Source of the DNA: Elusimicrobiota bacterium
Lineage (GTDB): Bacteria; Elusimicrobiota; Elusimicrobia; Elusimicrobiales; UBA9959
Length of the DNA: 64,000 nt
Assembly: GCA_012517285.1 (NCBI GenBank)
Contig: JAAYVG010000038.1
Span: forward strand, 27,091 to 91,090
Reading direction: 5' to 3'
Made by a program: the position numbers and the translations under genes. The notes beneath the pieces were generated by a model. It did no database searches. It saw nothing but the letters and a program-made list of their open reading frames with translations, and was not told where the DNA came from. This document shows, one piece after another, positions 16,328 to 53,525 of the stretch (positions are counted from its first letter, which is position 1; each line of letters opens with the position of its first letter).

Positions 16328-16560
16328 TTAGTTGTCTGGTTATTTGGTTATCTCGTTATTTAGGAAGAAAAAGAAGATAGTTATCTGATTGTTTAGTCAA
16401 TTAGTTTTTTAATCTTCTGGGAAGAAAAACCATAAGTAACCTCGTAGGTTACTTATGGTATAGGATTTATTCTATCTGTCTTTATCAGACGTCTTATCCG
16501 TTTACATCTCGATGATTAGATAACCAGATAACTAAATGACTAAACAACCAATTAGTCTCA
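16328..16560. repeat. Octamer-repeat element with central 13-bp hairpin (convergent gene junction)
   Basis: Degenerate octamers of the type TTATYTGG lie at 16332-16363 (4 units), then GAAGAAAAAGAAGATAG, then more units to about 16412. Six units in inverted orientation are at 16508-16555, so the two ends are complementary. In the middle CCATAAGTAACCT and AGGTTACTTATGG (16430-16442, 16446-16458) form a perfect 13-bp stem with a 3-nt loop. The element fills the gap between the PASTA gene and the convergent purQ and could act as a two-way terminator. Confidence 0.8.
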
Positions 16561-41095: not shown

Positions 41096-42172
41096 TTATT
41101 TTTTCTTTTTTTCGTCCTTCTTTACCTCTTTGGTATCTTCCTTCTTTTCTTCATCCTTCTGTGCACTGCTTATTTCATTATTGTTCAGAAATTTTTCTCT
41201 AAGAAGTTTTTCTATCTCAGCTGATATCTCTTTATTGTTTTTAAAAAATTCTTTAACATTATCCCTGCCCTGACCTAACCTCTGACCTTTATATTCAAAC
41301 CAGCTACCCGTTTTTTCTATTATTCCACTCTCCACTCCCATATCCAGAAGGCATCCCTCTTTTGATATTCCCTCGCCATTAATCATATCGAACTCAGCCA
41401 TTCTGTATGGTGGTGCAACCTTGTTCTTAACGATCTTAACCCTTATCTTAGAACCTACAACGAGATCCCCCTGTTTTATATTTTCAATCTTTCTTATATC
41501 AAGTCTTACCGATGAATAAAACTTTAAAGCAAGTCCTCCAGTGGTTGTTTCAGGATTTCCAAACATAACACCTATTTTATGCCTTATCTGATTTATAAAG
41601 ATTATTGAAGTCTTTGTGTTTGATGCTATTTCTGTTAATTTTCTAAGTGCCTGAGACATAAGCCTTGCCTGAAGCCCCATATGCTGATCACCCATCTCTC
41701 CCTCTATCTCTGCTTTAGGCACAAGAGCAGCAACTGAATCTATCACTATCACATCAACAGCACCTGATCTGACAAGCTTCTCAGCTATTTCAAGAGCTTC
41801 TTCACCTGAGTCAGGCTGTGAGATCAAAAGGTTATCTATATCAACACCAATCTTTTTGGCATAAAAAGGATCAAGTGCATGCTCTGCATCTATAAATGCA
41901 GCAACCCCATTCTGTTTCTGTGCCTCAGATATGATATGAAGTGTAAGTGTTGTCTTGCCACTTGCCTCAGGGCCATAAACCTCTATTATCCTTCCCCTCG
42001 GCAGACCACCAACCCCTAACGCAAGATCAAGCGATAATGCACCTGTGGGAATGACAGGAACATTTATCCTTGCAGATTTTTCGCCGAGCCTCATTATTGC
42101 TTCCTTACCAAAAGATTTTTCTATCTGGTTCATAGCAGCTTCTAAAGCCTGCTTTTTATCATCCTTTATCAT
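41096..42172 (-). CDS. recA: Recombinase RecA
   Basis: Forms the filament that catalyses strand exchange and triggers the SOS response. The 358 residues include Walker [11 protein letters not shown], the MAW-type block [23 protein letters not shown]2 residues [20 protein letters not shown], and a lysine/glutamate-rich tail. AGGAGG precedes the ATG. I looked for a LexA box upstream and did not find a convincing one. Complete, not interrupted by an intein. Confidence 0.98.
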
Positions 42173-42344
42173 AAAACCTCCTCGAAACCAATAAATTTTA
42201 AATCACTTGGACAAAAATAGTTTCACTGTAATCTAAAATTACAACCATAAATTTTTACTATAAAACTATAAGAATATAACTACTTTGCCATTCTTTCTAC
42301 TCATTGTTAAGGAATATTTTACATTATTTTGTATTATAGTGAGC

Positions 42345-42548
42345 TTATTTTTTTAATCTTCTTATATTGAGATCCCCTGCTCCAACTTTAAAATTTATCC
42401 TAAAATCGGAAGAGCTATTGATAGCAAATTCACTCTTAAATTTACCATTTCCAGAATATGATATATTCATATCCGTTTTATCCGGGAAACTTAAATCAGC
42501 ATTAAAAGCAACCACCGCTCCTATCATTAATATTTTAATTGCCTTCAT
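42345..42548 (-). CDS. Small putative secreted protein
   Basis: A 67-residue ORF with a strong GGGAGG site 5 nt before its ATG. A hydrophobic N terminus (KAIKILMIGAVVAFNADL) leads to a short beta-prone region ending with basic residues (NIRRLKK). It lies between recA and the defence island. Not recognised. Confidence 0.5.
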   Translation of the reverse strand: MKAIKILMIGAVVAFNADLSFPDKTDMNISYSGNGKFKSEFAINSSSDFRINFKVGAGDLNIRRLKK

Positions 42549-42566
42549 TTAGACCTCCCAGACATA

Positions 42567-42893
42567 TTATATCCCTTTATTTAGGATTTCTTCTCCCTTT
42601 GGCAAAAAGGATGAAAACATGCTTTTAAAAAGTTTGCCGTGATTGGGAACTAATAAATGCAAAAGCTCGTGGACTATAACTGCGTCCTGAAAGTGTCGCG
42701 GCTTATCCAATAAAGATAGATTAAAAGTAATCTGTCCTGCTGTGGAGCAGGAAGCCCATTTTTTAGACATTTTTTGAAATCTTATTCTCGTTGGTACGGC
42801 ATGAGTTTTCTTTGACCAATATAAAACACGCTTTCTAAAATCAATTTTAAAATCGGAAGTTTCAGTATTGCTTTTAATTAAAATATTAGCCAT
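42567..42893 (-). CDS. YgjP/SprT-like zinc protease domain (DUF45)
   Basis: A 108-residue protein containing HELLHLLVPNHGKLF, the HExxH metalloprotease motif plus the third histidine, and MSKKWASCSTAGQITFNLSLL typical of the YgjP family. It is about half the length of stand-alone YgjP proteins. The gene starts 1 bp after hsdR and closes the restriction-modification operon, a neighbour often seen with type I systems. Substrate unknown. Confidence 0.85.
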   Translation of the reverse strand: MANILIKSNTETSDFKIDFRKRVLYWSKKTHAVPTRIRFQKMSKKWASCSTAGQITFNLSLLDKPRHFQDAVIVHELLHLLVPNHGKLFKSMFSSFLPKGEEILNKGI

Positions 42894-42894
42894 A

Positions 42895-45765
42895 TCAACC
42901 TTTTCTCGTTTTCATAATATTTTCAGCTATCTGAACCATTTTTATCTCCCCGACTACAGGCAAAAGGATTTTATAGAGTTTCATCTTTAGCCTGCGAGAC
43001 TCCTCCGGATTATATTTATAATTTGGATATTCAAGCATAATTTCGTTTATACTTAAAGCAAGTTTTTCTGGCTCCGCCACATTCTCATTTTTTAAAATCC
43101 AGTAGGCGGTAAAAGTGTTTTCGTCAAAACCCTTTTCTTTTTGTTCTTTTCCAGCGGACTGATAATTATTATAAAGCTCTTCTATTTTTTTCAATGCTTC
43201 TTCAGTCGTAATTTGACGGTCCTCATACATTTCTTGTATAGCTTGTGCTCTCTCTTTTATGGGTATCAAATAAGGCCGCTCGCTTTCCTCAATGATTTGA
43301 ATAACATGAATGATTAGATTTATAACTTTAGCCTTACCAGTGTTTTTTGATTTTATAGCCTTTATTATTTCCTCATCAAGTTTTACAGGAACCCCTTCTT
43401 TTTCTATAAGAGCCGTGCCTAATTCGCGAACTAAATCTTCTGTTTTGTGCATAAAGTCAGGAGAGACAACCCGCCTCGGGCTAAAATAATTTTTTATTAC
43501 TTGATATAAAGCTGAAAGTTTTGAGTAATCTTTCATATATTTTTTGAGGAATTGGTCAGGTGAAATTATCTCATAAAGCATCTCAATCTCTTTATAAAAA
43601 TCAAAGAACTTCTTTCTTTCAGATTTCTCCACCAAAGCCTCAACAGCCCGCTCAACCGCTTTATCATCAATAGTATCTTTACAATATTCCAAATATTCAA
43701 CAGCATCGTTATCCATTAAATCGGCAAATCTCTGTTTAAGCACTTCAATGTTTTTTATTACGCCGTTTACCACATCAGAATCAAAAGCCAAAGCTTTTTC
43801 CAACCTTTCAAATATCCCGACAAAATCCAGAACAAAACCGGAAGGCTTGTTTCTCCCCTTATCGTCTTCATAAGGCCTGTTTACTCGGGCTATAGCCTGC
43901 AAAAGAGCATGGTCGCGCATCGGTTTATCCAGATACATACAATAAAGCAATGGCGCGTCGTAACCGGTAAGCAGTTTATCTGTAACGATTAATATCTTCG
44001 GCAGTTCGGCTGATTTTATGAAAGCTTTCCTGACTCTCTTTTCCTCTTCATCTGAAAGATAAAATTCTTTTAATAATTCACTGTCATTATGGCCTTTGGT
44101 ATAAATCGGCCTCGAATATTCCTTCGGCAGATATTTATCCAACGCCTTTTTATATAAAGCGCAGGCTTCCCGGTCCACTGCCACCATGAAAGCTTTATAG
44201 CCAAGCGGCTCTACATTTTTAGTGAAATGTTCCGCCACAAATTTTGCCACTTTATCAATCCTTTCATTTCCTTTTAAAAAATTCCTCAGACTTACCGCTT
44301 TTTCAAGTATTTTATTCAACTCCTCTATATCGCTTACCCCTTCAGCTTCGGCAAGGCTGAAAAATTCCTTTTCAAGTTTTTCTTCAGGCACCATAATTTC
44401 ATTCTGCGCCAGAGCATAATATAAAGGCAAAGTTGTTTTATCCTCTATGGATTCTGCAATGGAATATTTATCCAGATAGCCTTTATCATCTTCCTTACCG
44501 AAAATTTTAAAAGTCCCTTTACCGTAAGCGGTTTTATCTATCGGAGTGCCGGTAAATCCTATAAGGGTAGCGTTTGGCAAGGCGGAAACAAGATAATTCC
44601 CCAAATCTCCGCCCGTGCTCCTGTGTGCCTCGTCTATAAGAACAAAAATATCTTTTCTTTTATTAAGGCACTCGTCGGCTTTGTCAAACTTATGTATCAT
44701 TGAAACAATAAGCCCCCTATAATCACTTTTTAAAAGCGTTCTAAGTTCATTTTTGCTTCCCACCGGCTTATGAGCATCCTTGCCGAGAATATTCGTTATC
44801 CAGCCAGAGAGCTGTCCTTCCAACTCGTTTCTGTCAACAAGCATAAGAACTGTAGGTTTTACAGGCAGGCGAAGTATAATCTCGGCGGCCTTTATCATGG
44901 TAAAAGTCTTACCGGAACCCTGTGTATGCCAGACAAGACCAGTTTTTTTGATAGGGTCTGAAACTCTCGCCACTATCTTTTCCACTGCGCGGCTCTGATG
45001 CTGACGCAAAACAACCTTTTTAAGATCATCGTCTTTAGTAAAAAATATTATCCAATCAGCAATCAATTTCAGAAATCTTTCCCTGTTAAAAAATGCCTTA
45101 ACTTTTTTCTCAAAATTCTCCGATTCTTTATCTTTCCAGTTAAAAAGACTTTTTCTGTCAAAATTCCATGTTGGGCCATAATAAAAATCAAATATTTGGG
45201 TAATATTAAAAACCTGCGGGGAGGTAAGCATCTCAGGGGTTTCCTCGTGATATCGGTGGATTTGAGTTAAGGCTTCTTCCATATCCTTACTGGCGCTTTT
45301 CGTTTCCACTATGGCCACGGGAATACCGTTTATTATAAACATTATATCAGCCCTATTGGAACTTTTTCCATTCGTATAAGCCCATTCATCGGAAATCTGG
45401 AAAACATTTTTTTCAGGATTGGCATAATCAATCAAGGTTACATTCTTTTCCTGCTTCAAAGTTTCGACATAAATTGATTTTTCTCCCCTTAACCATTTGA
45501 GGATTTCATAATTTCCTTCTATATTATTCCTTACACTTTCCATTTTTTCTATTATCACATCCACATTTGACAAATTAACAATACCCGAATTTAAATCAAG
45601 CAGCTTACTTTTCAAGACTTCATAAAAAAATAAACCGCCTTCTCCTTTACGCAAGTTCAATGCCTCGTCCCGTGTCAAATAGGCCCAGCCGATATCTTTG
45701 GCATACTTAATCATCGGGTTTTGAACAGTTGATTTTTCGTTATCAAAGTTTGACATTATACTCAC
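42895..45765 (-). CDS. hsdR: Type I restriction enzyme R subunit
   Basis: The ATP-driven translocase and nuclease subunit, 956 residues. The N-terminal PD-ExK-type nuclease shows GIPVAIVETKSASKD (E-x-K). The helicase part has Walker A HTQGSGKTFTM, DEAH-like VLIDEAHRST, GFTGTPID, TDKLLTGYDAP and QAIARVNRPY. A C-terminal helical domain binds HsdM. Complete with no frameshift, so probably active. Base composition of the whole island is visibly less AT-rich than the flanking genes. Confidence 0.95.
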   Translation of the reverse strand: MSIMSNFDNEKSTVQNPMIKYAKDIGWAYLTRDEALNLRKGEGGLFFYEVLKSKLLDLNSGIVNLSNVDVIIEKMESVRNNIEGNYEILKWLRGEKSIYVETLKQEKNVTLIDYANPEKNVFQISDEWAYTNGKSSNRADIMFIINGIPVAIVETKSASKDMEEALTQIHRYHEETPEMLTSPQVFNITQIFDFYYGPTWNFDRKSLFNWKDKESENFEKKVKAFFNRERFLKLIADWIIFFTKDDDLKKVVLRQHQSRAVEKIVARVSDPIKKTGLVWHTQGSGKTFTMIKAAEIILRLPVKPTVLMLVDRNELEGQLSGWITNILGKDAHKPVGSKNELRTLLKSDYRGLIVSMIHKFDKADECLNKRKDIFVLIDEAHRSTGGDLGNYLVSALPNATLIGFTGTPIDKTAYGKGTFKIFGKEDDKGYLDKYSIAESIEDKTTLPLYYALAQNEIMVPEEKLEKEFFSLAEAEGVSDIEELNKILEKAVSLRNFLKGNERIDKVAKFVAEHFTKNVEPLGYKAFMVAVDREACALYKKALDKYLPKEYSRPIYTKGHNDSELLKEFYLSDEEEKRVRKAFIKSAELPKILIVTDKLLTGYDAPLLYCMYLDKPMRDHALLQAIARVNRPYEDDKGRNKPSGFVLDFVGIFERLEKALAFDSDVVNGVIKNIEVLKQRFADLMDNDAVEYLEYCKDTIDDKAVERAVEALVEKSERKKFFDFYKEIEMLYEIISPDQFLKKYMKDYSKLSALYQVIKNYFSPRRVVSPDFMHKTEDLVRELGTALIEKEGVPVKLDEEIIKAIKSKNTGKAKVINLIIHVIQIIEESERPYLIPIKERAQAIQEMYEDRQITTEEALKKIEELYNNYQSAGKEQKEKGFDENTFTAYWILKNENVAEPEKLALSINEIMLEYPNYKYNPEESRRLKMKLYKILLPVVGEIKMVQIAENIMKTRKG

Positions 45766-45778
45766 TTCCGTTTTGATT

Positions 45779-46741
45779 TCAAGGAATTGTCGCTTGAATT
45801 CTATTTCCCAATTTAGTTTTCAAATCTTCAATATTTTCCCAAATAATATGATTATACTGCCTTGTATCAAAATGTAGATCTTTTTCATATTCTTTTTGGC
45901 ATGTGAAGATCACTGGAATACCTAAACCCTTTGCGAAACCTGCCTCATAATAAACCCCTCCCCTATCTCCAGTAAAATCTGCAATTAGAAACTTACTTTT
46001 ACGAATTTCTGAAATAATTACATCGCAAATCTTTTCATTATGTTCCTTCTTATCTACGCGAATGGGGGTAAAACCCAAGTCACTTATAACTGATTTAAAC
46101 CCTTTTTCCCAAAACTCATCCATCGATTTATCAAACCACATCGCTACAAAAACTTGATTGCTATTTATATTGCTTCCTCTTTCTAATTCTGCAACTTTAT
46201 TCCATCCCATAGGAGTCAAACGAAGATCTTGAGAAATTATATCTTCTATCCCCACTATGTCTCCTTCAATTAATTCACTTTTAATCAACGAACTAACTAT
46301 ATACTCCCATGATTCTTCATCCTCACAATAGGCTAAAGGATACATATCCTCTACTAAGCTATTGATCCATTTTCCAGGTATAGCCATTTTAGAATAATTT
46401 AAGAGTGTTTTATCTAATCGCTCAGAAATTAAATATGGGAATTTTTCATTTAATATCTCATCTACCGAAATATAAAATGAATCTTTAATTTCTCCATTAA
46501 CAATTTCTTCATTAACTTTCTCAAGCGTAATAAAAGGAGTTTTTTTATTAAGCACAGCACACTCGCGAGTATATGAGGAAATTTTATAAATTTCTTTTTT
46601 CATTTCTTCTTTTACTAAATACTTAATCGTCTGTGCAGAAATATAGAATTTACCACACTTCCGACATTCCACCTCATAAACATCCTTACCATTAACCTGA
46701 TCCATTTCTACATTCTGTTTACATAAAGGACATTCTGACAT
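45779..46741 (-). CDS. Zinc-ribbon plus nucleoside 2-deoxyribosyltransferase/TIR-like protein
   Basis: A 320-residue protein placed between hsdS and hsdR. The N terminus has two Cys pairs (CPLCKQ and CRKCGKFY), a probable zinc ribbon. The middle (about 40-185) is a charged helical region without known motifs. Residues 190-320 resemble nucleoside 2-deoxyribosyltransferase folds, also related to TIR-like domains. They show NQVFVAMWFD, KICDVIISEIRKSKFLIADFTG and GGVYYEAGFAKGLGIPVIFT with the putative catalytic Glu. Such domains cut N-glycosidic bonds and serve as NAD or nucleotide-depleting effectors in several immune systems. A role as an extra effector or sensor is inferred. Not a standard type I subunit. 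Confidence 0.8.
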   Translation of the reverse strand: MSECPLCKQNVEMDQVNGKDVYEVECRKCGKFYISAQTIKYLVKEEMKKEIYKISSYTRECAVLNKKTPFITLEKVNEEIVNGEIKDSFYISVDEILNEKFPYLISERLDKTLLNYSKMAIPGKWINSLVEDMYPLAYCEDEESWEYIVSSLIKSELIEGDIVGIEDIISQDLRLTPMGWNKVAELERGSNINSNQVFVAMWFDKSMDEFWEKGFKSVISDLGFTPIRVDKKEHNEKICDVIISEIRKSKFLIADFTGDRGGVYYEAGFAKGLGIPVIFTCQKEYEKDLHFDTRQYNHIIWENIEDLKTKLGNRIQATIP

Positions 46742-46749
46742 AATTCCTC

Positions 46750-47922
46750 CTAATTTACCCGTATTTTCCCTGTCATAAGTTGATTAAGCGTGGAAGAAAA
46801 AAACTCATTATAAACTTCTAATTTTTTTCCCTCTATTTCTATTTTATTATCTATTGAAGTCAAAATGTTAGCAATTTCTTCTTGCTCATCTTTATTTGGA
46901 AGTGGAATAATAATCCGTTTAGCCATAGGAACTGTAAGTTGTGGTATTGGAGATTTATCAAAATATTTTTCAAAATTATTTATCTCTATCGCAAATTTTA
47001 AATAATATAAACTCACTATATTCAAATTTGGCAGAATAACTATAAGCCTTATTGCAGGAAAATAAGGTTTTTCTCTCAACACACAATAGCCTATTGTTCC
47101 TCTACTGGAAATTGTTAAACTTGGTTTTGACACTTTTATAATATTTGTATATCCATATAACCCCTGTTTTTTTTCTCCATTTGTATATATAGGAATTTTA
47201 TATTCATCAGTTATGAGTTTTGAAAAATTATTTTTTGGAACATCTCCACCTGCAAATATTTCATCAACTATTTCCCCTAATCGCATTACCTCCCAGCTTT
47301 TTGGAATCTCTCCGATTTCGGTTTGTTTTAGCGGCTCGCCGTTAAGGCCTTCTCGGAAAAGTTTAGCCATTGTGGCAGATTTAAGTTCCTTTAAATTCTT
47401 AACTAATTTTTCCTGATTTTCCACAGCCTTTTGAATTTTTGTAAGCACTTCCGCGATTTTTTCCTGCTCCGTCTTGGGAGGACAAGGCAAAAAATAATCT
47501 TTTAAGATTTTAAAATGGCGATTATATCCTCTATTAGGAATATTTATGCTTTTAAAAGCATAATAAAGAAATTTCGGATTATATATTTCTTCATTGGCCT
47601 TAATCAATTTGGTTCCATCAGCTCCTGTTACAAATGGGAAATCTACATATTTGAAAACACGCGTGTGGTCCCCAAAAATTATTATTGGGATACACTCTTT
47701 GTAAACTTTACTTTCATCATCTGTATATCCAGCAATAAAATCATTACCCTGATCAACAATTGGATAAAGGCCATTTGTTTTATAAGAACTTTTTAGTTCA
47801 GAATCTTTTGATTCATTCAAATTATTATTTACAGCCTTATCAAAAGCCTTTATTTCCCAACTTTTTGGCATTTCTCCGATTTCGGTTTGTTTAAATTTTC
47901 GTTCTTGTGTTTTTGCGTTCAT
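46750..47922 (-). CDS. hsdS: Type I restriction-modification specificity subunit
   Basis: Two target-recognition domains in 390 residues set the DNA sequence. Each half opens with the same phrase, QTEIGEMPKSWE and QTEIGEIPKSWE, the usual conserved regions of HsdS. I start at MNAKTQERKFKQ (AGGTG site upstream, 4 bp after the abi stop) and not at the track start, which lies inside abi. The duplicated DNA could let the domains recombine. Confidence 0.92.
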   Translation of the reverse strand: MNAKTQERKFKQTEIGEMPKSWEIKAFDKAVNNNLNESKDSELKSSYKTNGLYPIVDQGNDFIAGYTDDESKVYKECIPIIIFGDHTRVFKYVDFPFVTGADGTKLIKANEEIYNPKFLYYAFKSINIPNRGYNRHFKILKDYFLPCPPKTEQEKIAEVLTKIQKAVENQEKLVKNLKELKSATMAKLFREGLNGEPLKQTEIGEIPKSWEVMRLGEIVDEIFAGGDVPKNNFSKLITDEYKIPIYTNGEKKQGLYGYTNIIKVSKPSLTISSRGTIGYCVLREKPYFPAIRLIVILPNLNIVSLYYLKFAIEINNFEKYFDKSPIPQLTVPMAKRIIIPLPNKDEQEEIANILTSIDNKIEIEGKKLEVYNEFFSSTLNQLMTGKIRVN

Positions 47923-47926
47923 AAAT

Positions 47927-48817
47927 TCACCTCGGAGTCCAAAGCGGATGGGATTGCCAATTATCCAGAAAACCCATGTGCCTCGGAACATCTGGTAATG
48001 GCTTTGGCTCATTTATCAACTCTTTAATGCGTTGAGAAAATGACGCTGACGTCGGTTTATCTATTGCTTGTAGGATGTGGCACAACGCAAAAATCACAGC
48101 CCCTATTTTATTCCTTTCAAGGGCATTCCAGTTTGTATCGCCATTCGGAAGCCGCAAAGATTTTACTGTTTTCTTGTTCCATAATCGGGAGTGATGGTCG
48201 CAGATATTTCTTACGTAGGTGAAGACATGTAGCCAGTTCGGGAAATATGCGGCAGTGCAGGAAAACCTTGAGGCAATTGCTTTTTGGTCCTTGAAATGCA
48301 TTCCGCCAACAAATTTGGATAGCGAGCCTAAAGACATTACTTCAACTGCTACCCATATAGGAACAGACGGAAATTCTTCAGAATATTTTGCCTTGTGGTG
48401 AGCAATGAATACCTCTTTTGAATTCTGTATATCATCATACAACCGTTTTAACCAATCATCATGGGAAAAATGTTCGCTCTTGACCGGGAAATTTTCCTTC
48501 TGCTCATGCCCTTTTGCGCCATAAGTATGGGCGAAATAATACGCGACTCTTGCGCGTACTGCTACCTCAATGATTTCCAAAGCCTCGGCTATAAGCAGGC
48601 GCAATTGCCGGTCAAATTCATATAGCTGACAAATTTGTTCAAATGTGGTTCCGGGGCGGAATACATCGCGAGGTTCTTGAAACGGAATGCCGTAAACACT
48701 CAGCCGGTAATAATTAAAACGGCTAAGACACTGCTCGGCCTCTGTAGGGTTTAGTATGGTAAGCCCGCGGGATTTGAGGATATCCAATTGCTCCGTGTAG
48801 GTTTTTGGAGGTTTCAT
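47927..48817 (-). CDS. Abi_2 (AbiD/AbiF-like) HEPN abortive-infection protein
   Basis: A 296-residue protein with the Abi_2 family start (YTEQLDILKSRGLTI, FNYYRLSVYGIPFQ) and the HEPN RNase motif RNICDHHSRLWN (R and H of R-x4-6-H). LYEFDRQLRLLIAEALEIIEVAVRARV is the other conserved block. HEPN proteins of this type cut RNA and arrest growth on phage attack. AbiF relatives are reported to form toxin-antitoxin pairs with a small non-coding RNA. Two tandem hairpin RNAs lie in its leader here. GGAGG is 5 nt before the ATG. It interrupts hsdM and hsdS. GC-richer than average, so probably acquired. Confidence 0.9.
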   Translation of the reverse strand: MKPPKTYTEQLDILKSRGLTILNPTEAEQCLSRFNYYRLSVYGIPFQEPRDVFRPGTTFEQICQLYEFDRQLRLLIAEALEIIEVAVRARVAYYFAHTYGAKGHEQKENFPVKSEHFSHDDWLKRLYDDIQNSKEVFIAHHKAKYSEEFPSVPIWVAVEVMSLGSLSKFVGGMHFKDQKAIASRFSCTAAYFPNWLHVFTYVRNICDHHSRLWNKKTVKSLRLPNGDTNWNALERNKIGAVIFALCHILQAIDKPTSASFSQRIKELINEPKPLPDVPRHMGFLDNWQSHPLWTPR

Positions 48818-48828
48818 ATAATACCTCC

Positions 48829-48891
48829 AAAAAAAGAAAGACCCGCCGATTTGTGCATAGCCTTGCGGCCAGAGGCCTGGCGGGTACTGTT
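48829..48891 (-). ncRNA. Candidate antitoxin RNA 1 (hairpin plus T run) before abi
   Basis: The predicted transcript from the promoter at 48898-48927 would run from about 48891 to the T run. ACCCGCC and GGCGGGT (48841-48885) form the outer stem, AGGCCTCTGGCC an inner stem, and CTTTCTTTTTTT follows. This is an intrinsic terminator in front of abi, so abi expression needs read-through. It resembles the upstream copy at 48941 in order of motifs and length. Confidence 0.6.
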
Positions 48892-48897
48892 AAATAT

Positions 48898-48927
48898 ATT
48901 ATAGCAGAATAAAAGTATGGTCGTCAA
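48898..48927 (-). promoter_or_regulatory. Promoter of candidate antitoxin RNA 1
   Basis: TTGACG (48922-48927), 18-bp spacer, TATAAT (48898-48903) on the minus strand. Nearly consensus and between two coding genes. Confidence 0.78.
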
Positions 48928-48940
48928 TAGCAATTCCGGA

Positions 48941-49002
48941 GATAAAAATGCCCACCGAAAATGCGCACTGGCCAGAAAGTTAGGAGGCGTGGCGGGCTTA
49001 TT
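48941..49002 (-). ncRNA. Candidate antitoxin RNA 2, homologous upstream copy
   Basis: GCCCGCC and GGTGGGC (48950-48997, one G-T pair) form the outer stem, followed by ATTTTTAT. CCCGCCA, GCCTC, TGGCC, a TGC(A/G)C box and TCGG(C/T)GGG recur in the same order as in RNA 1. The two units start about 111 bp apart. The copy is diverged, which suggests an old duplication or two specificities. Confidence 0.55.
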
Positions 49003-49008
49003 ATTAAT

Positions 49009-49037
49009 ATTATAGCAAAATGACGATATCGCCACAA
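49009..49037 (-). promoter_or_regulatory. Promoter of candidate antitoxin RNA 2
   Basis: TTGTGG (49032-49037), 17-bp spacer, TATAAT (49009-49014). It starts just inside the 3' end of hsdM. Confidence 0.65.
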
Positions 49038-49046
49038 TGCCAAATT

Positions 49047-50837
49047 TTAGTTCCATTTATACCCCAGTCTTAAAAAGATTTCTTTAAGATCCTGCTCGTT
49101 TTTGCTCTGCTCTTTTTCAATTTTTGCGATATCATCTAAAATAAGCTGGATATCCCGGTGTTCCACGGCTTCACCTGTCTCTATGAATCTGGAAGGCGAG
49201 ATATTATAATCATGTTTTTCCGCTATTTCTTTGCATGATACAATCTTCAGAAACTTTTTAATCTCAACTCCCGAATTAAAAGCGGCAGATATTTTTTTTA
49301 GAGCCGATTCCGTTAAATAGTTCTTTGGACGGCCTTTTTCAAATTCATCAGAAGCGTTTATAAGAATTATTTTGCCTTTTCTTTCCGGGGACTTATTTTT
49401 GTTTATTAGAAGGATTATCCCTGCGGCTGTGGTATTGTAAAATAAATTATCAGGCAAAAGTATAACCCCCTCAATCAAATCATTATCAACAAACCATTTG
49501 CGTATGGTCTTTTCCTTGTTTTCACTCTGGCTTCCGCTTCCACGGCTGGCCGCGCCAGTATCAAGCACTATCGCAGCACGACCCTTGGGCTTAAGCGAAG
49601 CGTGTACATGCTGGACCCATGCCCAGTCTGCGCTTGATGCAGGAGCATAGCCACCACGTGAGGAAAACCTTTCATGCGGATCATTTTCATAAAAATCCGG
49701 GTCGATATTATCCTGATTCCACATGGGATTTGTGACTACAATATCAAATTGCTTAAGCCCACCTGATTGATCCTGAAATTTAGGATTTGTCATGGTATTA
49801 CCGCGAAGTATCTCCCCTTCCATATCATGGACAACCATATTCATTCTCGCTATGGCGAAACTGGAACCGGTTAATTCCTGGCCGTAAAGCTTAAGCGGCT
49901 TCTTAACTTTTTCTTTTCCATCCCTTGCCAATAATTCTAATTGGCATTTTACAAGCAATCCGCCTGATCCTGAGCAGGGGTCATAAATCTCCTCGCCCTG
50001 CTTTGGCGACATAATCTTCGCTATAAGCCAACCGACTTCCTGAGGTGTGAAAAATTCTCCCGCAGACTGACCCGAACTTTCAGCAAATTTTCTGAGCAGA
50101 TACTCATAAGCCCTACCAAGGAAATCTGGCTCAACATCGTTTATACCCAGTCTGTAATCGGGATTGCTGAATTTTTCTATCAGGCGATTAAGCGCCTCAT
50201 CGCTTATCTCACGCTCACCATTATGAGTGGCATTAAAATCAACCGTATCTATCACTCCATTAAGCGAGGGATTTTCTTTCGCTATAAGACGAAGGGCGTT
50301 CGTGATTTTTTCGCCGAGCGTTTTGGGAGTTTTGTTATCCGTATATTTAAATTCCTTACGGCCACTTAAAACCGGCCACGTCGCTTCTTCGGGAATATAA
50401 AAACGCACAAGAGAATGATCCGCTTCCAAAACTTTTCTCGCAGATTCCTCATCGCCATATTCTTTTACAAGCCTTGCTATTTCGTCTTCAAAAACATCTG
50501 AAAGACGTTTTATAAAAAGAAGCGGCAGGATATAATCCTTAAATTTTGGAGCGTCTTTTTCCCCTCTTATAGAGCATGCTGCCTGCCAAAGCATGGTTTC
50601 CATATCCTTAATATTCATCTGTTCATTATTTGAAAGGCCAGAAAGAAGATCCTCATAACCTTTGCCTAATTTTTCAATATATTCCCAAACCATACGAGAA
50701 ATAGTTGGATTAGGTTTAAACTGACCTTTTTCCCAGCGAGCAACTGTCAAAAGCGATACTCCAAGTTCTTCTGCAAGTTTTTGTTGAGTTAAGCCTGTCC
50801 TTTTACGAAGTTCCTTTATAGTTTTTGAAAATTCCAT
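49047..50837 (-). CDS. hsdM: Type I methyltransferase subunit with N-terminal XRE helix-turn-helix
   Basis: An N6-adenine methylase of about 596 residues. Residues 1-65 are an XRE-type helix-turn-helix (LRKRTGLTQQKLAEELGVSLLTVARWE). The HsdM N-terminal domain and the SAM site DPCSGSGGLL follow. Motif IV is VTNPMWN instead of the common NPPF/NPPY. GEFFTPQEVGWL is the conserved lead-in. I start at MEFSKTIKEL, with AAGGAG 6 nt upstream; the track start lies upstream of the predicted transcription start. The built-in repressor domain plus the palindromic operator over its promoter suggests self-control like a C protein. Confidence 0.93.
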   Translation of the reverse strand: MEFSKTIKELRKRTGLTQQKLAEELGVSLLTVARWEKGQFKPNPTISRMVWEYIEKLGKGYEDLLSGLSNNEQMNIKDMETMLWQAACSIRGEKDAPKFKDYILPLLFIKRLSDVFEDEIARLVKEYGDEESARKVLEADHSLVRFYIPEEATWPVLSGRKEFKYTDNKTPKTLGEKITNALRLIAKENPSLNGVIDTVDFNATHNGEREISDEALNRLIEKFSNPDYRLGINDVEPDFLGRAYEYLLRKFAESSGQSAGEFFTPQEVGWLIAKIMSPKQGEEIYDPCSGSGGLLVKCQLELLARDGKEKVKKPLKLYGQELTGSSFAIARMNMVVHDMEGEILRGNTMTNPKFQDQSGGLKQFDIVVTNPMWNQDNIDPDFYENDPHERFSSRGGYAPASSADWAWVQHVHASLKPKGRAAIVLDTGAASRGSGSQSENKEKTIRKWFVDNDLIEGVILLPDNLFYNTTAAGIILLINKNKSPERKGKIILINASDEFEKGRPKNYLTESALKKISAAFNSGVEIKKFLKIVSCKEIAEKHDYNISPSRFIETGEAVEHRDIQLILDDIAKIEKEQSKNEQDLKEIFLRLGYKWN

Positions 50838-50849
50838 CAAATTCTCCTT

Positions 50850-50890
50850 AAATATAACATATGATACATTATATATCATATGTTATATTT
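50850..50890 (-). promoter_or_regulatory. 17-bp perfect palindromic operator over the hsdM promoter
   Basis: AAATATAACATATGATA and its exact reverse complement (50850-50866, 50874-50890) are 7 bp apart. One arm is exactly the promoter spacer, and the other covers the expected transcription start. A likely binding site for the XRE domain of HsdM. Confidence 0.85.
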
Positions 50891-50896
50891 TGTCAA
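50868..50896 (-). promoter_or_regulatory. Perfect consensus promoter of hsdM
   Basis: TTGACA (50891-50896), 17-bp spacer, TATAAT (50868-50873). Such a strong promoter would normally need repression, which the overlapping palindrome offers. Confidence 0.88.
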
Positions 50897-50929
50897 TGTT
50901 TAGAATTATCTCCCGACTCCCGCATTTTT

Positions 50930-51221
50930 TTAGTTAAAATCGTCAGGATGAATACTGATTAAGTCAAGATGTAAACTGATTCAACCAAGATTTAAACATA
51001 ATAGTTATGATTCTCTCGTAATTAGAATGATATGATAAAGTCTAACGGTGGAGATTTAGGACAATGTAACTACAGGTTAAGATTAAGATTGAGGTTAAGA
51101 AGAAAACGACAAATCTCCATCTAACCCAAACCCGAAGTAACCTACGCGGTTACTTTTGTTTCTTTCCTAAACAACTAAATAACCAGATAACTAAATAACT
51201 TTTTCGGTGCCCCCCTACTTA
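50930..51221. repeat. Octamer/TIR repeat between hsdM and the Fic gene
   Basis: The 548-bp gap between the hsdM region and the Fic gene holds, left to right, the GTCAGGATGAATACTGATT family box, a short hexamer array AGGTTA/AGATTA (51074-51097), the family hairpin AAGTAACC-TACGC-GGTTACTT (51135-51155), four octamers (51167-51198) and the end CTTTTTCGGTGCCCCCC. The left boundary is uncertain; I see no matching inverted end there. Confidence 0.7.
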
Positions 51222-51324
51222 TGGTAAAATAATAAAAAGTCATAAAAATCTGATGGGTGCAGTTCACAAACTTATTCTAATTACTTTTTTTTACTCAATA
51301 TATTCTAAATTAGGTTCAGTTTTA

Positions 51325-51348
51325 GCAAATATTATAAATCATATTTGC
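51325..51348 (+). promoter_or_regulatory. Operator 1 of the Fic gene
   Basis: GCAAATAT-N8-ATATTTGC, a perfect 8-bp inverted repeat. An identical arm pair follows 40 bp downstream. Confidence 0.8.
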
Positions 51349-51364
51349 ACTTTTCACCTTTTTT

Positions 51365-51388
51365 GCAAATATAAAATATTATATTTGC
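51365..51388 (+). promoter_or_regulatory. Operator 2 of the Fic gene
   Basis: GCAAATAT-N8-ATATTTGC with a different spacer, just upstream of the -35 box. Same arms and spacing as operator 1, centres 40 bp apart, about four helical turns. Confidence 0.8.
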
Positions 51389-51392
51389 GTTT

Positions 51393-51420
51393 TTGACTGG
51401 TTTTTAAAATATGTTAATAT
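51393..51420 (+). promoter_or_regulatory. Fic gene promoter, leaderless geometry
   Basis: TTGACT (51393-51398), 16-bp spacer, TAATAT (51415-51420). The ATG starts 8 nt after the last -10 base and there is no ribosome site. Confidence 0.65.
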
Positions 51421-51427
51421 ATAGATT

Positions 51428-52564
51428 ATGATAAAAATGACTAAATTTATATCTGGAAGATATATTCAAAGATATCAATATAAGAGTTTTGAACCCTCTT
51501 TCATAAACGACCAATGGCTCATAGACAACAAGGATGTTATACTGTTATTAAGTAAATCTGATAAAAAAATAGGAGAGCTAAACGCTTTTTCTGAGCTTAT
51601 ACCTGATATAGATTTTTTTATTAAAATGCATATAGTTAAAGAAAGCACTTTGAGCAGCCGTATTGAAGGGACACAAACAAATATAGAAGAGGCTATTCAA
51701 ACTCAAAAATTTATTTCACCAGAGAAAAGGGATGATTGGCAGGAGGTTCAAAACTATATACAGGCAATGAATTATGCTATTAAAAGACTGAATGAGATTC
51801 CATTAAGCAACAGACTTTTAAAAGAAACTCATAAGATATTACTTGAAGGAGTTAGAGGCGAGCATAAACAACCAGGAGAGTTTAGAAAAAGTCAGAATTG
51901 GGTAGGTGGGAATAGTTTGAATGATGCGTCTTTTATCCCACCTTCATTTGAAAATTTAGAAGAACTCATGTCGGATTTTGAAAAATTTCTTCATAACAAA
52001 CATACAAATCTGCCAGATTTGATTAAGATTGCAATTGCACATTACCAGTTTGAAACAATACATCCATTTTTAGATGGAAACGGTAGGATTGGAAGATTGC
52101 TTATAACATTATATCTTGTAAATAACAATATTCTAACAAAACCAACACTGTATCTATCTGATTTTTTTGAAAAAAATAGAAGTCTATATTACGACAATCT
52201 CAATAATGCAAGAGTTAATAATAATCTTATACAGTGGATTAAATTTTTTCTTGAAGGCATATATATTACTGCAGAAAACAGCATTAACACATTTAGAAAA
52301 ATAATATCATTAAAAAGTGAGACAGAAAATATAATCATTAATCTTGGAAGAAAGCAAACACATGCTAAATTGTTGATTCAATATTTATACGGGAAACCAA
52401 TCATTAATATAAATGAGGCGGCAGAGATTCTTGATATCAATTTTTCTACTGCTTCAAGACTGATAAATGAACTGGTAAAAGCAGAGATATTGAGAGAAAA
52501 AACTGGTTTTAAAAAGAACAAAGTTTTTATGTTTGAGAAATATCTAAGACTTTTTAATTCTTAA
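51428..52564 (+). CDS. Fic-family AMP transferase with N-terminal inhibitory motif and C-terminal winged helix
   Basis: A 378-residue protein. The catalytic loop is HPFLDGNGRIGR. The class II inhibitory motif SSRIEG (S/T-x3-E-G) lies near residue 78, so the enzyme is self-inhibited. The C terminus (about 300-378) looks like a winged helix (INEAAEILDINFSTASRLINELVKA). Fic proteins move AMP onto target proteins. The DNA-binding end and the twin operators upstream suggest self-regulation. The gene lies between two direct copies of the octamer/TIR end. An alternative ATG is three codons in. A toxin-like or stress role is inferred. Confidence 0.92.
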   Translation: MIKMTKFISGRYIQRYQYKSFEPSFINDQWLIDNKDVILLLSKSDKKIGELNAFSELIPDIDFFIKMHIVKESTLSSRIEGTQTNIEEAIQTQKFISPEKRDDWQEVQNYIQAMNYAIKRLNEIPLSNRLLKETHKILLEGVRGEHKQPGEFRKSQNWVGGNSLNDASFIPPSFENLEELMSDFEKFLHNKHTNLPDLIKIAIAHYQFETIHPFLDGNGRIGRLLITLYLVNNNILTKPTLYLSDFFEKNRSLYYDNLNNARVNNNLIQWIKFFLEGIYITAENSINTFRKIISLKSETENIIINLGRKQTHAKLLIQYLYGKPIININEAAEILDINFSTASRLINELVKAEILREKTGFKKNKVFMFEKYLRLFNS

Positions 52565-52654
52565 ATGATCCACCAACCGAATTATCGCCATTATCACATG
52601 ATGTCTTTTTTCGTCAATTTTTTAGATTAGATAATAAATAATAAAATTGCTTTT

Positions 52655-52677
52655 CTAAATAACTTTTTCACTGCCCC
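52655..52677. repeat. Solo repeat end (octamer plus TIR) downstream of the Fic gene
   Basis: CTAAATAA followed by CTTTTTCACTGCCCC, the same orientation as the copy at 51191-51215. It overlaps the HAD gene stop and supplies its last residues. Confidence 0.65.
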
Positions 52678-53525
52678 TTATTCCTTTTCTTTTTTCTTAC
52701 TGCAATTATTTTATCACTTATATCAGTGCTTTGAAGTATGCTGCCATTGCCCGTCATACCGTAGTAGGCATGCTCTATAGGTGTATCAGGACATATATAT
52801 GTTCCCCTTTTAATCCCTTTTGGATCCTTAGCAATACCTAACCACATAAGCCATACATTTGTGTTTGCAAAATCCTTTTCCATAAACTCAGGTTCTGCAG
52901 CAAATATCTTTTTTTTATCTCCAAACCCGTCAAGTACAGCAGCACTGTGATAACCGCAGTTTTTTGCAGCTATTATATCCTTTTCAGTATCGCCTATGAT
53001 ATACACATACGATGGACTTATCTTTTCTTTTAAAATTATATCAGCATCCTTAACTGCTGTTTTGAGCATATCCTCACGCTTTTCATGCTTCTCACCAAAA
53101 CCACCAAAAAGAAAATAATGAGAAAGCCTTGATGGCTCTAATTTTATATATGCCCCTTCCTTAAGATTACCACTCCCAAGCCCTATTAAAATATCCTTTC
53201 TATTCGAAAGCTTTTCAAGAAGTCTTTCTATCCCCTTTATCTTGAAATATTTTTTATTCTTGACAGAATACTCAACCTCTTCTGGCAAGAATTTTATATA
53301 AAGCTCCTTTATTTTCTTATAATCTTTTTCTGATGGCTTTTTATTAAAAGCACATCTGTATGCATTTTCAAAATTAACCCTGTCGGTTGAGCCCTGAAGC
53401 TCAAAAAAACTACACACATTTTTTGGGCCTCCCATAGCTGATAAAGCTTTGTTCAATGCCCTTAAACCCGCACCACCAGTATTTATAAGAGTTCCATCTA
53501 TATCAAAAAGTATTACTTTTGTCAT
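52668..53525 (-). CDS. HAD-superfamily phosphatase (phosphoglycolate phosphatase-like)
   Basis: The 285-residue protein shows HAD motif I FDIDGTLINTGG, motif II-like GLGSGN, and motif III/IV GDTEKDIIAAKNCG with a helical cap between. These fit Gph-like phosphatases, but the substrate cannot be named. The last residues (RNKGQ) and the stop come from a repeat end. It overlaps hutI by 23 bp and is the last gene of the long minus-strand run. Confidence 0.82.
   Translation of the reverse strand: MTKVILFDIDGTLINTGGAGLRALNKALSAMGGPKNVCSFFELQGSTDRVNFENAYRCAFNKKPSEKDYKKIKELYIKFLPEEVEYSVKNKKYFKIKGIERLLEKLSNRKDILIGLGSGNLKEGAYIKLEPSRLSHYFLFGGFGEKHEKREDMLKTAVKDADIILKEKISPSYVYIIGDTEKDIIAAKNCGYHSAAVLDGFGDKKKIFAAEPEFMEKDFANTNVWLMWLGIAKDPKGIKRGTYICPDTPIEHAYYGMTGNGSILQSTDISDKIIAVRKKKRNKGQ

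Follow-up and report, generated by a model that had tools for sequence, protein, structure and literature searches.

A type I HsdM subunit with a fused XRE-type helix-turn-helix as a predicted autorepressor of its own operon

The hsdM gene described here encodes a protein that very probably has two roles, judging from its sequence and that of its promoter: it would serve as the methylase subunit of a type I restriction-modification (RM) system and, through an XRE-type helix-turn-helix (HTH) acting on sites in the hsdM promoter, as the autorepressor of its own operon. The gene lies within the window, by which we mean the whole stretch of 64,000 nucleotides analysed; the coordinates of all features are collected in Table 1.

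Results

Domain organization of HsdM

HsdM is a protein of 596 residues encoded by a single open reading frame with the HTH in frame at its N-terminus. Pfam HTH_3 (PF01381) was matched on residues 7-45 (E 1e-10, 41.7 bits with a cut-off of 23), HsdM_N (PF12161) on residues 80-223 (E 5e-25) and N6_Mtase (PF02384) on residues 237-557 (E 3e-89). The catalytic motif (NPxW/NPPF type) reads NPMW and is invariant across the homologue alignment, and the NCBIfam hsdM equivalog TIGR00497 scored 232.6 bits (cut-off 242.75). Judged by HsdM_N, N6_Mtase with its catalytic motif and the hsdS and hsdR genes beside it, the protein is a type I RM modification subunit. The AlphaFold model (29-sequence alignment, mean pLDDT 84) consists of five HTH helices (residues 3-14, 18-25, 29-37, 44-57 and 62-67), a short linker and then the HsdM fold; as modelled, the N-terminus is a classic five-helix XRE/HTH_3 domain, above the Pfam cut-off. 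The closest PDB structure to the full model is PacII M1M2S. When the HTH was modelled alone, Foldseek matched it to the P22 c2 repressor on DNA, HigA on DNA, C.BclI and C.AhdI, with weak E-values of about 0.01-0.06 as expected at 74 residues.

Table 1. Positions of genes, RNA and regulatory elements of the hsd operon in the window.
Feature	Position	Strand	Evidence
hsdR	42895-45765	minus	TIGR00348 480 bits; Pfam HSDR_N
Effector-like protein (TIR/deoxyribosyltransferase-like)	45779-46741	minus	PADLOC TIR effector E 2.6e-10; weak Pfam Nuc_deoxyrib_tr
hsdS	46750-47922	minus	Pfam Methylase_S; true start ATG 47922
Abi_2 (AbiD/AbiF family), inside the operon, own promoter	47927-48817	minus	Pfam PF07751 E 1.5e-55; PADLOC AbiD
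abiF RNA (Rfam RF03085), shortly before Abi_2	48841-48884	minus	cmscan 31.8 bits (gathering score 37), E 0.015
Internal promoter TTGACG-N18-TATAAT for abiF RNA/Abi_2	48898-48927	minus	11/12 match
hsdM with N-terminal XRE HTH	49047-50837	minus	Pfam, AlphaFold model, PDB matches
HTH part of hsdM (residues 1-67)	50837-50637	minus	HsdM_N and N6_Mtase C-terminal to the HTH
Shine-Dalgarno region TAAGGAGAAT	50841-50850	minus	Sequence
Predicted operator region, 41 bp	50850-50890		17-bp perfect inverted repeat around TATAATG; site family in homologues
-10 box TATAAT	50868-50873	minus	Sequence; 12/12 promoter match
-35 box TTGACA	50891-50896	minus	Sequence; 12/12 promoter match

The hsdM promoter and its palindrome

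The hsdM promoter, TTGACA-N17-TATAAT (50896-50868, spacer at 50890-50874), is the sole 12/12 sigma-70 match within positions 42000-52700, and AAGGAG stands just before the ATG at 50837. Its 17-nt spacer is at the same time the first arm, AAATATAACATATGATA, of a 17-bp perfect palindrome with TATAATG in between, whose second arm, TATCATATGTTATATTT (50866-50850), covers the predicted transcription start at ~50861, about 7 nt past the -10 box. This is the longest perfect inverted repeat of the window; in ten locally shuffled windows the arms reached 12 bp at most. The in-frame fusion, the perfect promoter and a 17-bp palindrome with its arms on the spacer and the transcription start had all been described in an earlier note on this DNA, and each was confirmed here.

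A 12-bp family site, near-palindromic in itself, occurs once in each arm (TAACATATGATA and TATCATATGTTA, centres 19 bp apart). Read in this way, the palindrome probably comprises two operators rather than one, likely a pair of dimer sites. A pattern search of the 1.96-Mb assembly located TAWCATATGWTA at seven places, of which two are at the hsdM promoter. Among the six places whose context was inspected it is paired only at this promoter; of the five stray sites elsewhere, none was paired among the four inspected with their context, and such single sites are about as frequent as base composition predicts.

Three other repeats were noted. At 50939-50907 a 33-bp remnant of a dispersed repeat end stops 10 bp before the -35 box; it has 15 matches in the assembly including itself, several at contig ends, and is likely the terminus of an insertion sequence. 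The window's second-longest perfect inverted repeat (14 bp, ACCATAAGTAACCTCG/TAGGTTACTTATGGT) lies at 16429-16459 and is resembled by a hairpin at 51134-51156, GTAACCTACGCGGTTAC, possibly a repeated terminator-like element.

Fused homologues and their operators

In a first scan of genome contigs, seven full-length HTH-HsdM proteins with 60-76% identity were retrieved (five from Elusimicrobia, one from a Deltaproteobacteria MAG and one from an Acidobacteria MAG), together with a sister group (Poribacteria, Chloroploca and others; about 50% identity) in which HsdM has no HTH. A wider search covered 341 Elusimicrobiota genomes, 396 genomes from the phylum of the Acidobacteria MAG, 395 from that of the Deltaproteobacteria MAG, and IMG/VR. 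The fused set consists of 38 HTH-HsdMs with usable upstream DNA, and 23 related HsdMs without HTH serve as controls. The nearest relatives of the window protein are from Elusimicrobia, including genomes of the window's own family, which places the window most likely in Elusimicrobiota. In a tree of the HsdM body, from which the HTH columns were removed, 37 fused proteins form one clade (SH-aLRT 100), L099 being too short to place; L160 falls outside the fused clade and represents a further independent fusion with a different HTH. Neither the plasmid nor the phage collections contained a close relative of the fusion. On the Mycoplasmopsis arginini plasmids NZ_LR215045/6 a separate HTH regulator gene adjoins hsdM and the fused query spans both, a split form of the arrangement.

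Upstream of the homologues, a TTGAC box is followed by dyad sites across the spacer, the -10 box and the start site. Such a box within 110 nt upstream was present in 30 of the 38 fused members versus 3 of the 23 controls (Fisher 6e-7). The motif TATCANNTGATA was derived from the window and the five relatives nearest to it and then tested on the remaining members with at most one mismatch: it occurs in 10 of 13 further members of the same helix class ([YFL]PT..RW) versus 0/23 controls (Fisher 1e-6), and in none of the 16 members of the F[AT]T helix class. Nine of these 16 have TGCTATAGCA, which at the same tolerance is likewise missing from all 23 controls, and the deeper branch of this class has ATATnGCA repeats about 9 bp apart that take in the start codon. 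The strict pattern, TTGAC and then a site, was found in 20/38 fused members, 0/23 controls and 1.6% of random 200-mers. The earlier note had named fused homologues without a palindrome as a case that would refute its proposal; most of the 38 have a matching promoter operator and none of the controls does. No clear operator was found in L139-L141 (Acidobacteriota-type, with Y for N in the helix), L156 and L134. A motif-free dyad score, compared with dinucleotide shuffles (p<0.05), singled out 9 of 38 fused members and 1 of 23 controls; this palindrome test is weak because many operators are short or consist of paired half-sites, so the case rests on the motif, and the score was replaced by the motif tests with a held-out set.

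The operator type is associated with the recognition helix, with the main operator switch mapping to one tree branch, so that the covariation of helix and operator represents few independent events. The window helix reads SLLTVARW in place of SYPTINRW, and a window half-site is altered, TAACA/TGTTA replacing one TATCA/TGATA; the changed helix fits the changed half-site. In nine members (L098, L100-L104, L132, L135 and L157) the start codon lies in or beside the operator, only about 20 nt past the -10 box, and the hsdM mRNA is therefore probably leaderless or nearly so.

Wherever a member has both elements, the TTGAC box comes first and the site starts 6-38 nt further downstream, a placement that fits repression. 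All sites overlap the spacer, the -10 box, the start site or the start codon, and the stretch upstream of the -35 box yielded none. Two sites per promoter are present in the window and several relatives, which, given that C proteins share the fold and the paired sites, would also suit a two-way switch in which one site activates at low occupancy and full occupancy represses. We consider this improbable, since C-protein activation sites lie upstream of the -35 box, where the fused members have none, and the window promoter, already a perfect consensus, would have no need of an activator. It is quite improbable that the main task of the HTH is to guide the methylase to DNA or hold it there and that another cellular XRE protein binds the operator. 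XRE domains do bind DNA, HsdM acts on DNA and small XRE-like matches are present in related genomes, yet the operators accompany the fused HTH across phyla and are missing upstream of related HsdMs without it, their type tracks the fused helix, and a second regulator would need to travel with every copy. Most improbable of all is that the palindrome arose by chance or is an RNA or terminator element unconnected to the HTH: the region is AT-rich and promoter-like matches are common by chance (53 found, 38 expected), but the arms far exceed those of the shuffled windows, only one of them would be transcribed and the site recurs in relatives. An RNA hairpin or attenuator was rejected on the ground that a transcript from the hsdM promoter carries the second arm only, so the palindrome would work as DNA.

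Related HTHs outside HsdM

The scan with F[AT]T-class proteins also returned HTHs of the same subtype outside HsdM. They include stand-alone regulators (L183, L185, L187 and L189), a short HTH-bearing protein (L184) and, in IMG/VR, N-terminal fusions to HmaA-like defence helicases (L186 and L188, PADLOC HmaA E about 1e-142), which have a TTGAC/operator promoter upstream. Among the stand-alone or helicase-fused HTHs, TTGAC followed by a related site was found within 200 nt upstream in 8 of 16, as compared to 1.6% of random 200-mers of the same contigs, a descriptive figure, since these sequences were already known when the pattern was drawn up.

The operon and the Abi_2 leader

The operon reads hsdM, Abi_2, hsdS, the effector-like gene and hsdR. 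The abiF RNA upstream of Abi_2 scores below the Rfam gathering score, though its position is as expected (fold z -4.0), and the abiF leader between hsdM and Abi_2 is conserved in other Elusimicrobia (L009, L011, L012 and L013). The same four loci have Abi_2 after hsdM, truncated at 110 aa in L013. With its own promoter and the abiF leader, Abi_2 would be tied only partly to the HsdM-controlled promoter. In Clostridioides difficile, an AbiF-type toxin is neutralised by an abiF-type RNA (PMC12373285).

Before the abiF RNA, at about 49000-48945 (minus strand), another and diverged copy seems to be present, which has a TGCTATAATATT box of its own. An 11-bp perfect inverted repeat surrounds the Abi_2 start codon (48833-48802, minus strand, fold z -3.5) and pairs the Shine-Dalgarno GGAGGT with ACCTCC of the coding start; it is possibly a translation block on the toxin. 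An 80-aa open reading frame at 48814-49056 was discarded as an artefact lying over the abiF leader. The effector-like protein has a weak zinc-ribbon (Lar-like) start and a TIR/deoxyribosyltransferase-like end, with a relative in L009 (11181-12140). Relatives have other cargo in the hsdM-hsdS interval, namely a YhcG/DUF1016 nuclease, an AbiJ_NTD4 protein and a Schlafen AlbA_2 protein (L010 7766-8926, L011 3940-4773 and L009 8997-9950, respectively); in these loci the interval is a swap site for defence genes.

Discussion

We infer the binding, the repression, the dimeric mode and the physiological purpose of HsdM autorepression from the sequences described above. Within the hsdM promoter, the HTH of HsdM in dimeric form would bind a pair of adjacent 12-bp sites: the first lies in the -35/-10 spacer and runs into the -10 box, and the second covers the transcription start. 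HsdM bound there would keep RNA polymerase off the promoter. Such repression by steric exclusion is suggested by the placement of the sites, which cover the spacer, the -10 box and the start site and are missing upstream of the -35 box. As HsdM accumulates, transcription of hsdM and the co-read genes would fall; upon entry into a new cell or loss of HsdM, the strong consensus promoter would be open and methylase would be made fast and throttled later. Abi_2, with its extra promoter and abiF RNA, would escape part of this control. That the methylase subunit represses its own operon had been proposed before and is supported, at the level of sequence, by the operators of fused homologues and their absence from controls; the accompanying guess of partly separate control of the Abi gene gains support from its near-consensus promoter and the upstream abiF RNA, the leader being kept in other Elusimicrobia.

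An M2S methylase holds two HsdM subunits, so the repressing dimer could, speculatively, derive from the assembled enzyme, and HsdS supply would then count. A broader proposal, which we put forward tentatively and judge rather unlikely as a whole, is that a single XRE HTH subtype makes up, with its TTGAC/-10-spanning operator, a portable cassette for autorepression. Several unrelated defence operons would have acquired it within their first enzyme (type I HsdM, HmaA-like helicases), and the two HTHs of M2S would form the repressing dimer, so that the operon would read the assembled methylase including HsdS. A predicted operator is available for most branches of the fused HsdM clade, and operators and recognition helices together form a natural specificity series. 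The clade offers a ready test of methylase timing on entry into a new host and of whether the assembled methylase is read.

A 2025 review described information on how type I restriction systems are controlled at the level of transcription as surprisingly scarce (PMC12707154), and here a whole clade very probably carries its own repressor. The earlier note had taken free C proteins of type II RM systems as the precedent. This holds for the HTH fold and the paired symmetrical sites of proteins such as C.AhdI and C.BclI, which also exert autogenous control. C proteins, however, are separate small proteins that activate and repress from GACT-type boxes located in part upstream of the -35 box, whereas the window HTH is fused to HsdM and its sites are all downstream of that box; closer precedents are the fused type II methylases and HsdC with its fusions. 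RptR, acting through sites that overlap the -10 box, is the repressor of a type I RM operon in which defence genes are embedded (PMC12255303), but is a separate protein, unfused to HsdM, that acts in trans on three 6-bp palindromic repeats. HsdC of Mycoplasma gallisepticum represses a type I hsd operon (Fisunov 2017, PMC5282649) and, as in the window, is an XRE-like regulator whose site overlaps the -10 box and the start site; the likeness to the window HTH is that of two HTHs, HsdC being a separate protein that binds direct repeats, (GTGTTAN5)2. HsdC-like regulators fused to methylases occur in Mollicutes, the fusions in Table 2 of that study being type II methylases (PMC5282649). The literature searched, in which subscription journals were thinly covered, yielded no description of a type I HsdM with a fused HTH; repressor-domain methylases are known in type II systems, and the fusion to a type I HsdM is apparently an unreported variant.

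The nearest likeness is to the type II methylases with an N-terminal HTH, M.SsoII, M.Ecl18kI and M.EcoRII (PMC12707154, PMC3978073, PMC3695355), which like the window HsdM combine this domain with an operator in their own promoter and whose HTH represses their own gene. These are cytosine-5 enzymes, whereas HsdM is an adenine-methylase subunit of the N6_Mtase family; in Ecl18kI, and probably also SsoII, repression frees a competing promoter of the restriction endonuclease, whereas the window has a single operon promoter and a different operator. By analogy, the window HsdM would work like the methyltransferase-repressors of the M.SsoII kind, from outside that enzyme family.
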